Shown here in pieces: positions 5,324 to 20,717 of a DNA stretch of 64,000 nt. The stretch covers positions 1 through 64,000 of the forward strand of contig NZ_CAKOET010000005.1 in NCBI RefSeq assembly GCF_933208495.1, read 5' to 3'. Below the pieces are notes generated by a model. That model was not told where the DNA came from and did not search any database. It was given only the letters and a program-made list of their open reading frames with translations. Position 1 is the stretch's first letter; the number at the start of each line of letters is the position of its first letter. The position numbers were made by a program, and so were the translations under genes. Origin of the DNA: Convivina praedatoris (GTDB lineage Bacteria; Bacillota; Bacilli; Lactobacillales; Lactobacillaceae).

Positions 5324-5588
5324 AACATTTGAAAACGATGAGTAGAAGAGTAATTTACTACCTCATATCAGGGAGCTTACGGTAATTGAGAGTAAGTATG
5401 GATAGTGAATGAAACACATCTACGAGTGCAAGATTGAATTTGAGTAGGTTTTGCCGGTGATGGCCGTTAACACATTCAGTTTTAAACTGATTGAGGCTGT
5501 ATTAGTGATGATGCAGCGGATAATGAGGTGGGACCGCGGAAACGCCCTCTAAGTGCTTATTAGCATTTAGAGGGCGTTTCTTTCGTTT
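5324..5588 (+). promoter_or_regulatory. T-box riboswitch, specifier read as CAC (histidine)
   Basis: This 5286-5633 gap holds a full T-box leader. The stem I base pairs GTAGA (about 5342-5346) with TCTAC (5419-5423). Inside it AGAGTA forms the left side of the specifier loop, and ATTTAC pairs with GTGAAT. The right side then reads GAAA-CAC-A, aligning with GAAA-GGC-A in the well-known glyQS T-box, so the specifier is CAC at 5415-5417, for tRNA-His. The T-box sequence GGTGGGACCGCGG is at 5527-5539. A strong terminator follows. Uncharged tRNA-His should permit read-through into the transporter genes. The leader type is certain; the amino acid is a structural inference. Confidence 0.9.
5539..5585 (+). 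terminator. T-box regulated terminator
   Basis: GAAACGCCCTCTAA pairs with TTAGAGGGCGTTTC, followed by TTTCG. It overlaps the T-box sequence on its 5' side, as expected for the alternative antiterminator. Confidence 0.88.
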
Positions 5589-5633: not shown

Positions 5634-6275
5634 ATGAAATATTTGATGGAAATTTTACCAGGGATTTTGACCGGATTACAGTCGACCTTAGGGGTATTCT
5701 TCATTACTCTGTTGGGATCAATTCCTTTAGGAATTTTAGTTTCTGTAGGGATGAAATCGCCTTATTTTACAATTCGATGGCTCATTAATGGTTATATTTG
5801 GATTATGCGTGGTACGCCATTATTATTACAGTTGATATTTATCTACTATGGTCTAAGTATGATTGGGATTAACTTTCCTCGTTTTGAAGCAGCCGTACTA
5901 GCCTTTGTTGTTAATTATGCCGCTTATTTAGCTGAAATATTTCGTGGAGGATTACAATCAATCCCTAAGGGACAATATGATGCGGCTAAAGTATTAGGAT
6001 TTAGTCGAAGTCAAACTTTCTTTAAAATTGTTTTGCCCCAGGTAATTAAGATTATTATGCCATCCTTTGGTAATGAAGTGATTAATTTGGTTAAAGATAC
6101 TTCACTAGTATATGTTATTGGCTTGGGTGATATTTTACGAGCAGGGAGTATCGCCGCTAGTCGAGATGTAACTTTAATTCCTTACCTAGTTGTAGGAATT
6201 CTTTATTTAATCATGACTGCAGCCGTTACTGTCTCACTCCGTCGTAGTGAGAAGCGTTTAAGTATTTGGAGGTAA
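5634..6275 (+). CDS. polar amino-acid ABC transporter permease, probably histidine
   Basis: Permease of the polar amino-acid uptake family (HisM/GlnP type), 213 aa with about five membrane helices. The cytoplasmic loop GQYDAAKVLGFSRSQTFFKIVLPQ is the EAA motif that docks the ATPase. GAGGGGG precedes the ATG. It is the first gene after the T-box leader and overlaps no other gene; the ATPase starts 3 bases after its stop. Histidine as substrate is inferred only from the specifier codon. Confidence 0.9.
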   Translation: MKYLMEILPGILTGLQSTLGVFFITLLGSIPLGILVSVGMKSPYFTIRWLINGYIWIMRGTPLLLQLIFIYYGLSMIGINFPRFEAAVLAFVVNYAAYLAEIFRGGLQSIPKGQYDAAKVLGFSRSQTFFKIVLPQVIKIIMPSFGNEVINLVKDTSLVYVIGLGDILRAGSIAASRDVTLIPYLVVGILYLIMTAAVTVSLRRSEKRLSIWR

Positions 6276-6277
6276 AT

Positions 6278-6916
6278 ATGTTAGAAATTAAGGGATTAAC
6301 CAAAAAATATGGTCAAAATGTTATTTTTAAAGACTTGGATTTAACGCTGAATAATGGAGAAGTATTGAGTGTTATTGGTCCTTCGGGAATCGGTAAAACC
6401 ACATTAATTAAAATTATGACGGGATTAGAGACGGCTAACAGTGGACAAGTTTTCATTGATGGAGAAGAATTTGGCATTGGTGATGGTCGCTTAAATGCTA
6501 AAATTGGTATTATTTTTCAAGACTTTAATCTTTTTCCCAACTATACTGTCTTAGATAATATTACTTTAGCACCTGTAAATGTTAATAAATTATCCAAAAA
6601 AGCTGCTAAACAAGAAGCCATAGAATTGCTTGATACATTAGGGATGAAGGATAAAGAAATCCTATATCCCTATCAGCTATCTGGTGGGCAAAAGCAGCGT
6701 GTCGCCATTGCCCGTGCTTTAGCAATGCATCCCAATATTATTGCCTATGATGAACCTACTAGTGGGTTAGATGAACATTCAACACGTCAAGTGGCTGCCG
6801 TAATTAAACAGTTGAAGAGTAGCGGGGTTACCCAATTGGTGATTACCCACGATCAATATTTTGCAGAATTAATTTCTGACCGTATATTTGATTTTGCCCA
6901 GGAGGTACAAAGATAA
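6278..6916 (+). CDS. polar amino-acid ABC transporter ATPase, probably histidine
   Basis: ABC ATPase of 212 aa: Walker A GPSGIGKTT, Q-loop FQDFNLF, signature LSGGQKQR, Walker B IIAYDEPTSGLD and switch His in ITHD are all present. The ATG at 6278 follows GGAGGTAAAT; the frame is open from 6266, inside the permease gene, but that start has no ribosome site. Its stop overlaps the ATG of the binding-protein gene, so the three genes are translationally coupled. Confidence 0.92.
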   Translation: MLEIKGLTKKYGQNVIFKDLDLTLNNGEVLSVIGPSGIGKTTLIKIMTGLETANSGQVFIDGEEFGIGDGRLNAKIGIIFQDFNLFPNYTVLDNITLAPVNVNKLSKKAAKQEAIELLDTLGMKDKEILYPYQLSGGQKQRVAIARALAMHPNIIAYDEPTSGLDEHSTRQVAAVIKQLKSSGVTQLVITHDQYFAELISDRIFDFAQEVQR

Positions 6917-7761
6917 TGGTTAGTCAACGGAAAAAAATTATTGTCAATAGTATAGTTGGATTAGTCGTATTGTTTGGTGTGGTTTTTATTGGGCTGGGTT
7001 TGCATAATAAAAATCAAAATAAGGGTCAAATCGGGGCTCATAATGATGAATGGCCACGGATTAAAAGTGAAAAAACAATTACAATCGGGTTGGATGATAC
7101 CTTTGTACCTATGGGTTTTCGAGATAATAGTGGCAAATTAGTCGGTTTTGATATTGATTTGGCTACTCAAGTTTTTAAGGATTTGGGCATTGCCGTTAAG
7201 TGGCAACCAATTGATTGGTCCATGAAGGAAACTGAGTTAAATACGGGGAATATTGATGCAATTTGGAATGGTTATACTGCCACGCCAGAACGGGCTCAAA
7301 AAGTTGCCTTTTCGAATTCATATCATCGAGTTACTCAGGTAGTGGTGACACTAAAGAAAAATAATATCAATAGTTTTGCCGATATGAGTGGTAAGATATT
7401 AGCTGATCAGAATTCCTCAAGTGGTGATGCCGAGTTGAATGCCAAGCCTAATATTTTGAAAAAATATATTAAAGATAATAAGGCTGTTGGTTATGATACC
7501 TTTGATAAAGCGTTTAATGATTTGAATGCTGGTCGAATTGATGGTTTACTTGTTGATGAAGATTATGCTCGTTACTATATTAGTCATCAAGATAACGCTG
7601 ATAATTACCAAATTGTTAAGGGTGATTTTTCAATGACGGATGATGTGGTTGGCTTCCGTAAGGGGGATGTTGGCCTACAAAAAGCAGTTAACGAACAATT
7701 TAGTAAGTTACAAAAAAATGGCTGGATCAGTGATTTAGAAAAGAAGTGGTTTGGTCAGTGA
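6916..7761 (+). CDS. amino-acid ABC substrate-binding protein with an uncleaved membrane anchor
   Basis: Type II periplasmic-binding fold of the SBP_bac_3 family: ITIGLDDTFVPMGFRDNSGKLVGFDIDLA is the typical ligand-site start, with DAIWNGYTATPERAQKVAFSNSYH further on. Residues about 8-28 form a hydrophobic helix, but there is no lipobox Cys: IGLGLHNKNQ follows it. Gram-positive binding proteins of this family are usually lipoproteins, so this one seems held by a transmembrane anchor. The last gene of the T-box operon; a terminator follows. Confidence 0.9.
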   Translation: MVSQRKKIIVNSIVGLVVLFGVVFIGLGLHNKNQNKGQIGAHNDEWPRIKSEKTITIGLDDTFVPMGFRDNSGKLVGFDIDLATQVFKDLGIAVKWQPIDWSMKETELNTGNIDAIWNGYTATPERAQKVAFSNSYHRVTQVVVTLKKNNINSFADMSGKILADQNSSSGDAELNAKPNILKKYIKDNKAVGYDTFDKAFNDLNAGRIDGLLVDEDYARYYISHQDNADNYQIVKGDFSMTDDVVGFRKGDVGLQKAVNEQFSKLQKNGWISDLEKKWFGQ

Positions 7762-13142: not shown

Positions 13143-13235
13143 TTACAATAGACTTGCTTAAGTGAGTCAGTTACTTGAGTTTGTTAGTTATACGTACAGC
13201 AATCACAGTGACAGTATGTTGTGGGGGATGGTTTC

Positions 13236-14120
13236 ATGCCAAAAATGCACCGTGGAAGAACAATCTTTGCTGGTATTTTAGTTGTATTAGCATTGCTAAT
13301 TGGAACAGCTTACCTAACGCGAGATAAAACTTCCTCAAGTGTTTCAATTACAGCCGTTGGTTCAACAGCTCTTCAACCCTTGGTTGAAGCAGCCGGAGAA
13401 GATTATGCCAGAGATAATGCTGGTGTTTTTGTAAACGTTCAAGGAGGAGGAACAGGAACAGGTCTTAGCCAAGTTGCTCAAGGAGCAGTTGATTTAGGTA
13501 ATTCTGACCTTTTTGCTGCAGAGAAAAAAGGAATTAAGGCTCAGGATCTAGTTGATCATCAAGTTGCTGTAGTCGGGATTACCCCGATCTTAAATAAAGG
13601 ACTTAATATTCATGATTTAACTTCCAAACAGTTACAAGATATTTTTACTGGAAAAGTAACTAATTGGAAAGAATTAAACGGTCCGGATCAAGAAATTGTT
13701 GTGATCAATCGCGCCGCTGGTTCTGGTACTCGTGCAGCCTTTGAAAAGTGGGGATTAGACGGGGCTAAGAGTTTAGAAGCACAAGAGCAAGATTCTTCTG
13801 GAATGGTTCGTTCAATTGTTTCTAGTACTCCGGGCGCAATTTCTTATGTAGCTTTTGCCTATGGTAATAGCAGTGTTACTAGTCCGGCGATCAATGGTGT
13901 TGCTGCCAAAGATGAAAATGTTAAAAATGGTACTTATCCAATCTGGTCTTACGAACATATTTATACCAAAGGTAAGCCTAATCAGGCTGTACAAGGATTT
14001 CTTGATTATCTTATGTCCCATCAAGTTCAATCTAAATTAGTACCAAAGTTGGGTTATATTTCAATCCATGATATGGATATTAAACGTAGTATGGACGGAC
14101 AGATAACAGCCAATTCCTAA
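13236..14120 (+). CDS. pstS: phosphate ABC transporter substrate-binding protein PstS, membrane-anchored
   Basis: Phosphate-binding protein of about 294 aa. The phosphate-site motifs AVGSTALQPLVEAAGEDY, GGGTGTGLSQVAQGAVDLGNSD and NRAAGSGTRAAFEKW are clear. The N-terminus has a hydrophobic helix (GRTIFAGILVVLALLIGTAYLTRD) but no lipobox Cys, so it should stay as an uncleaved anchor. The ATG at 13236 follows a GGGGGATGG site; a GTG at 13221 is in frame upstream. First gene of the pst operon. Confidence 0.93.
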   Translation: MPKMHRGRTIFAGILVVLALLIGTAYLTRDKTSSSVSITAVGSTALQPLVEAAGEDYARDNAGVFVNVQGGGTGTGLSQVAQGAVDLGNSDLFAAEKKGIKAQDLVDHQVAVVGITPILNKGLNIHDLTSKQLQDIFTGKVTNWKELNGPDQEIVVINRAAGSGTRAAFEKWGLDGAKSLEAQEQDSSGMVRSIVSSTPGAISYVAFAYGNSSVTSPAINGVAAKDENVKNGTYPIWSYEHIYTKGKPNQAVQGFLDYLMSHQVQSKLVPKLGYISIHDMDIKRSMDGQITANS

Positions 14121-18742: not shown

Positions 18743-19714
18743 ATGGCACAAAATTCAGTGACCGTTAGAGAATTAGTTAATAATACCCGTTTGAAGATTG
18801 TTGCGGGAAAAGAATATTTGGATCGACCAATTACGACTTCTGATATTAGCCGACCAGGATTGGAAATGACTGGGTATTTTAATTACTATGCTCCTGAGCG
18901 AGTTCAGTTATTAGGAATTACAGAAACCTCATTTTCAACACGAATGCAACATGATGAATTATTAATGGTTTATCGGAAGATGGCTAATGCGAAGACACCG
19001 GTTTTTGTGGTTTCAACTAACTTACCAATCAGTGATGAGTTAAAGCAGGCCGCTAGTGAGGCGCATATTCCGATTTTAACTACCTCGTTAACTTCTTCGC
19101 GGATTTTATCTAATATGACCTATTATCTAGGAGATCAGTTGGCCCCACGGGAAAGCGTTCATGGGGTATTAATTGATGTCCACGGAATGGGTGTTTTAAT
19201 TACTGGGGATGCTGGAATTGGCAAAACAGAGGCCGCTTTGGAACTGATTCAGCAGGGAAAAGCTCGTTTGGTAGCTGATGATCGGGTTGATATTCATCAA
19301 GAAGATGAAGAACGTTTAATTGGGGAACCAAGCGAAGTTTTGCGAAACATGATGGAAGTTCGTGGGGTTGGTATCATTGATGTGCAACAGGTGTATGGAG
19401 CTGTTTCTGTACGTTCCCATGCTTCGATTATGATTAACATCCATTTATCGAATGGACGTATTGGTGAAGAAAATTTTGACCGTTTAGGTAATGAAAATGA
19501 TTCCCTAGAAATTTTAGGTGTTAAATTAAAGCGTATGGTTGTACCGGTGACTCCTGGTCGTAACACAGCGAGTGTTATTGATGCAGCGGCGGTTAAGTTT
19601 AGGACCACTAATATGGGCTTTGATGCGCTAGAGACTTTGGAAAAGCGAATGACAGCTGAAATTAGTAAGAATGAAAAAATTGATGCAAAGGAAAAGCAAG
19701 AAAACAATGACTAA
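18743..19714 (+). CDS. hprK: HPr kinase/phosphorylase
   Basis: Phosphorylates HPr at Ser46 and so drives CcpA-dependent catabolite control. Walker A GDAGIGKTE, the K3 region VRGVGIIDV, and the N-terminal domain start TVRELVNNTRLKIVAGKEYLDRPI are all present, 323 aa. The ATG at 18743 gives MAQNSVTVREL; an upstream GTG or TTG-like start is less likely. It overlaps gpsA by 8 bases. In most lactobacilli lgt stands between these two genes, and it is absent here. Confidence 0.96.
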   Translation: MAQNSVTVRELVNNTRLKIVAGKEYLDRPITTSDISRPGLEMTGYFNYYAPERVQLLGITETSFSTRMQHDELLMVYRKMANAKTPVFVVSTNLPISDELKQAASEAHIPILTTSLTSSRILSNMTYYLGDQLAPRESVHGVLIDVHGMGVLITGDAGIGKTEAALELIQQGKARLVADDRVDIHQEDEERLIGEPSEVLRNMMEVRGVGIIDVQQVYGAVSVRSHASIMINIHLSNGRIGEENFDRLGNENDSLEILGVKLKRMVVPVTPGRNTASVIDAAAVKFRTTNMGFDALETLEKRMTAEISKNEKIDAKEKQENND

Positions 19715-20717
19715 AATTGCTGTCTTAGGGGCTGGTTCATGGGGAACTGCACTGGCCAATCGAATTGCCAGTAATGGCTTTTCAACGGTCTTATGGTCAC
19801 ACCGGGCTGAGCAAGTTGAAGAAATTAACCAAACTCATACTAATGCTGATTATTTACCTGGCACCCAACTTTATCAGGGGTTGCAGGCAACGGCTGATTT
19901 GACCGTTGCCATAGATGGAGCTGATATTATTTTAGTGGTTGTACCAACTAAGGGTATTCGTGAAGTCGCTCAAAAATTAAATAAAGTGTTATTAAATTTA
20001 CAGCATTCTGCCATTGTCGTGCATGCTACCAAGGGATTAGAAGAGGGGAGTCACAAGCGAATTTCTGAAATGTTGCTTGAGGAAATGGAGGCAAAGACTT
20101 ATACTGCTATTGCAGCTATATCTGGGCCTTCCCACGCTGAAGATGTGGTGAAAAATGATTTAACTGCGGTTTCAGTGGCTAGTCCAGACCTTAAAGCTGC
20201 GCAAGCTATCCAAGCGGTATTAGCTAGCCCAACCTTTCGACCATATACTAATCAAGATTTATTAGGGTCCGAATTAGGTGGGGCCTTAAAAAATATTATT
20301 GCGATTGGCTCAGGCATGTTAGTTGGCCTGGGATATGGCGTAAATGCCCAAGCGGCTTTGCTAACACGTGGTTTAGCGGAATTACGCCGCATTGGTGTGG
20401 CAATGGGCGCTCAGGCAGAAACATTTCTGGGACTGGCTGGTATTGGTGACTTAATTGTGACCGGTATGTCGGCTAATTCACGGAATTATCGGGCCGGCTT
20501 TGCCTTGGGACAAGGACAATCTTTACCAGAAGTCCAAGCCCAGATGGGAATGGTAATTGAAGGGGTTAATACAACTAAAGCTGTTTTTGAGTATGCCCAA
20601 CAGCTTGACCTTGAAATACCAATTACCCAGGCCATTTATCAAGTGCTCTATCAGCAAGCTGATATTAGGGCTGAAATTGAAGCTTTGATGACTCGGCCGC
20701 TAAAAAGTGAAAATTAA
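19707..20717 (+). CDS. gpsA: glycerol-3-phosphate dehydrogenase, NAD(P)-dependent
   Basis: Reduces dihydroxyacetone phosphate to sn-glycerol-3-phosphate for phospholipid synthesis. LGAGSWGTALANRIA is the dinucleotide site; SGPSHAEDV, ALKNIIAIGSGM and SRNYRAGFALGQG are conserved. 336 aa. The frame is open from 19671, but the ATG at 19707 gives the normal MTKIAVLGAGSWG start and overlaps the hprK stop. Confidence 0.97.
   Translation: MTKIAVLGAGSWGTALANRIASNGFSTVLWSHRAEQVEEINQTHTNADYLPGTQLYQGLQATADLTVAIDGADIILVVVPTKGIREVAQKLNKVLLNLQHSAIVVHATKGLEEGSHKRISEMLLEEMEAKTYTAIAAISGPSHAEDVVKNDLTAVSVASPDLKAAQAIQAVLASPTFRPYTNQDLLGSELGGALKNIIAIGSGMLVGLGYGVNAQAALLTRGLAELRRIGVAMGAQAETFLGLAGIGDLIVTGMSANSRNYRAGFALGQGQSLPEVQAQMGMVIEGVNTTKAVFEYAQQLDLEIPITQAIYQVLYQQADIRAEIEALMTRPLKSEN

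Follow-up and report, generated by a model that had tools for sequence, protein, structure and literature searches.

Why do hprK and gpsA overlap in Convivina praedatoris, when lgt normally lies between them in lactobacilli? The question arises in a window of 64,000 nucleotides, the whole stretch of DNA analysed (positions 1 to 64,000 of contig NZ_CAKOET010000005.1, assembly GCF_933208495.1). Its preliminary description proposed that lgt had been deleted or moved, that the lipoprotein maturation pathway had been lost and that transmembrane anchors had taken its place. We asked whether the gene is gone or has moved, how many times it was lost, and what may now hold the proteins that lipid once anchored.

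Results

The hprK-gpsA junction

The junction consists of the following features.

18743 to 19714, forward strand: hprK, HPr kinase/phosphorylase, 323 aa (Pfam Hpr_kinase_N and Hpr_kinase_C), 5′ of the lost lgt.
19707 to 19714, forward strand: 8-base overlap ATGACTAA of the hprK stop and gpsA start, at the position that lgt takes in lgt-positive relatives.
19707 to 20717, forward strand: gpsA, NAD-dependent glycerol-3-phosphate dehydrogenase, 336 aa (Pfam NAD_Gly3P_dh_N/_C), 3′ of the lost lgt.

The overlap of 8 bases thus lies within the interval 19690-19725 named earlier, with no lgt between the two genes. The order hprK-lgt-gpsA, which the preliminary description took as standard for lactobacilli, was seen in every one of the family's 20 top-scoring lgt loci. 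Among 80 named loci, lgt lies downstream of hprK in 62, including those of Periweissella beninensis and P. fabalis, and gpsA was found beyond lgt in 54 of these. The other 18 have hprK followed by gpsA with no lgt between, and belong to Convivina, L1_55_11, Leuconostoc, Fructobacillus, Weissella and three Lactobacillaceae MAGs. The same arrangement was found at each of the 26 survey loci from lgt-minus genomes.

The distance from the hprK stop to the gpsA start is 830 to 1495 bases in the 54 lgt-positive loci measured. It is -8 in 13 of the 14 survey loci from Convivina, Fructobacillus, Leuconostoc and L1_55_11, with +1 in the Leuconostoc fallax lineage, -20 in 4/4 Oenococcus-like loci, -14 in one MAG and +102 to +126 in 8/8 Weissella survey loci (73-132 across the Weissella clade). 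Since these distances differ by genus, the 8-base overlap is typical of the Leuconostoc group and not of every lgt-minus genome. The junction without lgt is neither chance nor a local artefact.

Search for Lgt and LspA

A search of the genome with PF01790 (Lgt) and PF01252 (LspA) had been named beforehand as the test of pathway loss. The Convivina assembly is a draft of 21 contigs (1,523,323 bases, 98.45% complete), and neither profile gave a match anywhere in it. The PF01790 search detected 9 of 14 controls and can therefore miss; because it missed B. subtilis, which should have lgt, the Lgt protein of Periweissella beninensis was added as a query. This protein matched all six lgt-positive controls in full (one of them the query's own genome) and gave no match in the Convivina genome.

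Surveyed with PF01790, 254 of 301 family genomes matched, and the 47 without a match all fell in seven genera; 20 of the 47 were listed and the other 27 deduced, the genus of each being confirmed and the protein query again giving no match. Six more genomes, of Leuconostoc and Weissella, carry C-terminal Lgt fragments only (about positions 154-240), several with stops. These weak matches were considered as working genes and rejected, as they hold only the C-terminal part, about a third. Across the 53 clade genomes the P. beninensis query hence returned nothing in 47 and fragments in six, and by the two methods full-length Lgt was found in none of the 53, single-contig assemblies included and two genomes (G167, G188) being 65-68% complete.

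LspA follows the same distribution. PF01252 matched 248 of the 301 family genomes, and LspA is absent from 51 of the 53 clade genomes (some rows deduced, not listed); the two LspA-minus genomes outside the clade (G063, G173) are 65% and 76% complete. Both Periweissella genomes carry Lgt and LspA.

One loss or two

The seven lgt-minus genera, labelled from the nearest named HprK and GpsA and from the tree, are Convivina (g1), Fructobacillus (g2), the Leuconostoc fallax lineage (g7), Leuconostoc (g16), Weissella (g18), an Oenococcus-like genus (g29) and the L1_55_11 lineage (g39). The Oenococcus-like label is by inference, its nearest named row being a Lactobacillaceae MAG (HprK 72%) in a comparison with no named Oenococcus row. 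HprK of the window is 100% identical to that of Convivina intestini DSM 28795 (323 aa) and GpsA is 94% identical to its C. intestini counterpart, while in another genome of the window's genus (G006) both proteins are 100% identical to those of C. intestini. The window would accordingly belong to a Convivina distinct from C. intestini, perhaps C. praedatoris, the one further species that the taxonomy names.

A tree of HprK, GpsA and GalU (52 rows) placed the 27 lgt-minus rows in one clade with support of 99/97, the two Periweissella rows being its sister and the Convivina genome of the window pairing with C. intestini. Full-length Lgt is absent clade-wide and LspA from all but two of the clade genomes, whereas Periweissella has both, with lgt at the ancestral site. 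The loss is ancient and common to the whole clade, and on these sequences it most likely postdates the split from Periweissella. What very probably happened is that lgt was truly lost, and lspA too, in an ancestor of Convivina, Fructobacillus, Leuconostoc, Weissella and the Oenococcus-like bacteria.

Among the other explanations, the one that survives best is that the gene was lost twice, once in Weissella and once in the line of Leuconostoc and the Oenococcus-like bacteria. The junctions do differ between the two sides, with an overlap of 8-20 bases or a 1-base gap against 73-132 bases in the Weissella clade. Moreover, a tree that pairs Weissella with Periweissella is worse by 9.8 log-likelihood units and is rejected only marginally (p=0.043), and one joining Periweissella to the Leuconostoc side is rejected at p=0.022, in AU tests on a quick tree of 49 rows that left out two rows with about a third of their columns filled (L124, L133) and a long-branch MAG (L073). 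The best three-gene tree, however, unites all lgt-minus rows, and we consider two losses unlikely; a single loss is the favoured reading.

Has the gene moved?

That lgt has simply changed place, to another part of the genome or to DNA missing from the assembly, with the pathway still working, is much less probable again. It could be argued for from the draft state of the Convivina assembly, from the fragments of lgt in six of the 53 clade genomes and from the fact that lgt travels on plasmids, many of them from lactic acid bacteria and enterococci. However, full Lgt was found in none of the clade genomes, even where the assembly is a single contig, and the fragments cover about the C-terminal third only, several with stops. 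Furthermore, the conserved former substrates have no lipobox cysteines, as described below, which would be unexpected with a working pathway. Of the two fates offered by the preliminary description, deletion thus agrees with the data from the genome itself and from its clade.

Lipobox cysteines of the former substrates

The two groups differ in YidC. Two copies were present in each of the 24 genomes searched, and the lipobox cysteine occurs in 21 of 22 copies from lgt-positive genomes and in none of 26 from lgt-minus genomes. For YidC-A the counts are 11/11 lgt-positive genomes, Periweissella included, against 0/13, and for YidC-B 10/11 against 0/13, with the N-terminus of L. saniviri YidC-B (L187) scored as having no lipobox. 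The YidC-B motif L-[ST]-G-C of lgt-positive genomes is replaced by [LIMF]-T-G-G in Convivina, Leuconostoc and Fructobacillus, by T-G-H or T-G-K in Weissella and by G-G in the Oenococcus-like rows, so that the cysteine column holds G, H or K. Judged by the aligned residues, the YidC-B site of the clade is the old lipobox minus its cysteine. In one single-contig Weissella genome the main YidC frame is broken (G018, C1, 724400-726100; L189), and its YidC-A was scored from the N-terminal frame.

Two families of binding proteins were read likewise, at 30 of 58 MetQ matches and 30 of 102 family-3 matches (the best in each genome, then some second matches). A lipobox is found in 8 of 10 readable lgt-positive MetQ copies and in 0 of 17 readable lgt-minus ones (p=2e-5), and in 10 of 12 lgt-positive family-3 proteins and 1 of 17 readable lgt-minus ones (p=3e-5, or 9/12 and p=2e-4 with a doubtful lgt-positive row, the fused permease L333, counted as negative), all these p-values being too small because related rows were treated as independent. 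The rows dropped were L352 and L359 (lgt-positive MetQ, wrong frame), L363 (lgt-minus MetQ, no N-terminus) and L324 (lgt-minus family-3, no readable start). The sole lgt-minus family-3 protein to match the lipobox pattern, in F. tropaeoli (L330), has its cysteine inside the helix. One MetQ each in lgt-positive Periweissella and Pediococcus has no lipobox.

Since neither Lgt nor LspA was matched and the former substrates have lost their lipobox cysteine, we regard loss of the pathway as very probable on these two lines together. The idea that unrelated enzymes have replaced Lgt and LspA and that lipoproteins persist draws on archaea, which lipidate cysteines by enzymes unrelated to Lgt (according to passages of PMC13251419); it is highly improbable here, the lipobox cysteine being absent from 26/26 YidC and 17/17 readable MetQ copies in the clade. 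In cells of the clade, no protein would then be lipidated on an N-terminal cysteine.

Binding proteins of the window

Two binding proteins in the window had been described as having no lipobox. They are listed here with the transporter to which the first belongs.

5634 to 6275: permease of the ABC transporter near a T-box.
About 6266 to 6916: ATPase of the same transporter.
6916 to 7761, forward strand: its family-3 binding protein (SBP_bac_3), with an N-terminal helix and no cysteine in the first 60 residues.
13245 to 14120, forward strand: PstS-like phosphate binding protein (PBP_like_2), with an N-terminal helix and no lipobox; possible GTG start at 13221.

The absence of a lipobox was confirmed for both; as evidence of pathway loss it carries less than had been supposed, because counterparts in lgt-positive relatives lack one too. 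For PstS, read by eye, a lipobox occurs in 1 of 23 readable lgt-positive loci, that of Pediococcus (L136), and none was seen in Lactiplantibacillus, Levilactobacillus, Lentilactobacillus, Secundilactobacillus or Periweissella. PstS was accordingly rejected as evidence of loss, the other 22 readable lgt-positive loci being without a lipobox as well. Family-3 proteins have a lipobox in Levilactobacillus (L319) and Paucilactobacillus (L326); in both lgt-positive Periweissella genomes (L318, L329) they have an N-terminal helix and none. Because of these Periweissella counterparts, the family-3 protein of the window would be weak evidence of the loss.

Upstream of the ABC transporter lies an Rfam T-box leader (window 5329-5552, forward strand, 113.7 bits).

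Lipobox census and cysteine use

A lipobox pattern was counted in six samples, each of 399 to 456 kb; the window forms part of the one from Convivina, and the Periweissella sample was drawn from two genomes. The pattern matched 3/435, 2/372 and 2/365 ORFs in the lgt-minus samples and 3/385, 6/373 and 3/351 in the lgt-positive ones; the raw totals, 7/1172 against 12/1109, do not differ significantly (p=0.25). The seven lgt-minus matches comprise four multi-helix proteins, one ORF of 89 aa, a protein whose cysteine is followed by a hydrophobic stretch (L213) and L238, which we take to resemble a WxL-associated protein with a C-terminal helix. After reading by eye, 12 apparent lipoproteins remained in the lgt-positive samples (two of the 12 matches being YidC) against at most one in the lgt-minus samples, with p=0.0014 calculated after the fact. 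The pattern count by itself was set aside as not decisive, since it separates the groups only after this reading. No credible lipobox protein was seen in about 30% of the Convivina genome, both YidC copies, one MetQ and two of its seven family-3 matches.

Cysteine makes up 0.169-0.246% of residues in the three lgt-minus samples, 0.230% in Periweissella and 0.295 and 0.607% in the other lgt-positive samples. Other conserved cysteines of YidC-A and YidC-B are also gone in lgt-minus rows, for example at YidC-B column 161 (10/10 against 0/13), so that the loss of any one cysteine tells less than it might seem to, and general divergence may account for some of these losses. General avoidance of cysteine with the pathway retained, which would account both for the low usage in lgt-minus samples and for the lost non-lipobox cysteines of YidC, is nevertheless very improbable: the enzyme genes are absent too, and Periweissella, equally low in cysteine, keeps Lgt, LspA and lipoboxes, so overall cysteine use alone is no explanation.

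Probable replacements of the lipid anchor

The N-termini of MetQ, judged by eye, differ within the clade. In Convivina, Leuconostoc, Fructobacillus and L1_55_11 the protein has a basic start and one helix, and two of the 10 Leuconostoc-group rows carry an A-x-A motif after residue 18, in one case within the helix. Of the seven Weissella and Oenococcus-like rows, by contrast, six have A-x-A sites (L347, L350, L351, L357, L358, L367). From this contrast we infer uncleaved helices in the Leuconostoc group and cleavage by signal peptidase I in Weissella and the Oenococcus-like bacteria. The proposal that transmembrane anchors replaced lipid suits Convivina and the Leuconostoc group; it fits less well in Weissella and the Oenococcus-like rows, where MetQ mostly has an A-x-A site like those of signal peptidase I.

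Binding proteins of Convivina and the Leuconostoc group would be held by an uncleaved N-terminal helix; in Weissella and the Oenococcus-like bacteria, a cleavable type-I signal peptide would direct the export of some, which would then have to be retained or used in another way. The lipobox-less helix proteins of lgt-positive relatives suggest a gradual shift to helix anchors as the route to the loss: PstS and amino-acid binding proteins anchored by a helix, which such relatives already have, may have made the pathway dispensable. Tentatively, the clade may be without any lipid-anchored proteins, and Weissella and the Oenococcus-like bacteria may run some ABC importers with cleaved, unanchored binding proteins in cells with a single membrane; this is conceivable, though we would not call it the likelier case.

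Discussion

Lgt was matched in 392 of 398 phylum genomes (completeness ≥90%), which makes the Lgt-minus state rare in the phylum and agrees with the earlier remark that it would be unusual in Firmicutes.

At the level of proteins, published predictions had already hinted at the loss. Table 1 of PMC3017865 (LAB-Secretome) gives predicted lipid-anchored proteins of 0.06-0.12% in L. citreum, L. mesenteroides and O. oeni and of 0.66-2.32% in 23 other LAB genomes. In PMC5727369 (2017), O. oeni PSU-1 belongs to the three Gram-positives, out of 179, for which no lipoproteins were predicted; the remaining species of the set have 9-160 each, which counts against a clade-wide loss if Leuconostoc or Weissella were among them. 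These predictions would describe the same protein-level phenomenon in the same clade, Oenococcus being a probable member; the parts of PMC5727369 and PMC3017865 just cited do not deal with the absence of lgt and lspA, with its reach across Weissella, Fructobacillus and Convivina, or with what took the place of the anchor. In the portions of the open-licence literature searched, no statement on the loss of lgt and lspA in these genera was found, and an earlier mention is possible.

In Buchnera and Orientia, small-genome symbionts and pathogens, lgt is likewise absent though relatives have it (passages of PMC13251419). By contrast, the loss described here extends over no fewer than seven genera, and the clade genomes measure about 1.2-2.1 Mb (not counting two incomplete ones). 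Most of the clade bacteria, unlike Buchnera and Orientia, live freely and have been cultured. Laboratory lgt deletion mutants of Gram-positives, for example S. pneumoniae, are also cells without lipoprotein lipidation; their substrates keep the lipobox, whereas in the clade it is gone from the substrates, as after a natural loss of long standing.

The clade, which includes food-fermentation genera, would be a natural lipoprotein-free system in which binding proteins, YidC and surface proteins could be tested without lipid anchors, and Periweissella, which has kept the pathway genes, offers a convenient control. It would also allow one to ask whether such bacteria escape TLR2 sensing and whether Lgt or LspA inhibitors have any effect on them. 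If MetQ is cleaved in Weissella and the Oenococcus-like bacteria, it would have to stay with its transporter by other means.

Besides the genome of the window, five scattered genomes of the phylum had no Lgt match (G339, G464, G508, G572, G640); for G464, G508 and G640, Lgt was matched in another genome of the same genus.

Mobile lspA and plasmid-borne lgt

Two Weissella genomes, G251 (C1, L054) and G280 (C16, L053), encode an intact LspA. In each, an interrupted fragment from the C-terminal part of lgt lies about 1.3 kb away, and over 1805 bases the two genomes share 99.5% identity in this stretch. A search with 3000 bases of the G280 stretch matched LAB plasmid DNA, with ISLpl1 and IS1163 transposases in its annotation, as well as an Enterococcus casseliflavus plasmid annotated with CadD plus lspA. 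We judge from these matches that lspA of the two genomes is mobile, in hosts without Lgt.

Among plasmid records, 523 match Lgt, 327 of them over at least 80% of the query, and 269 of the 523 are from Enterococcus.
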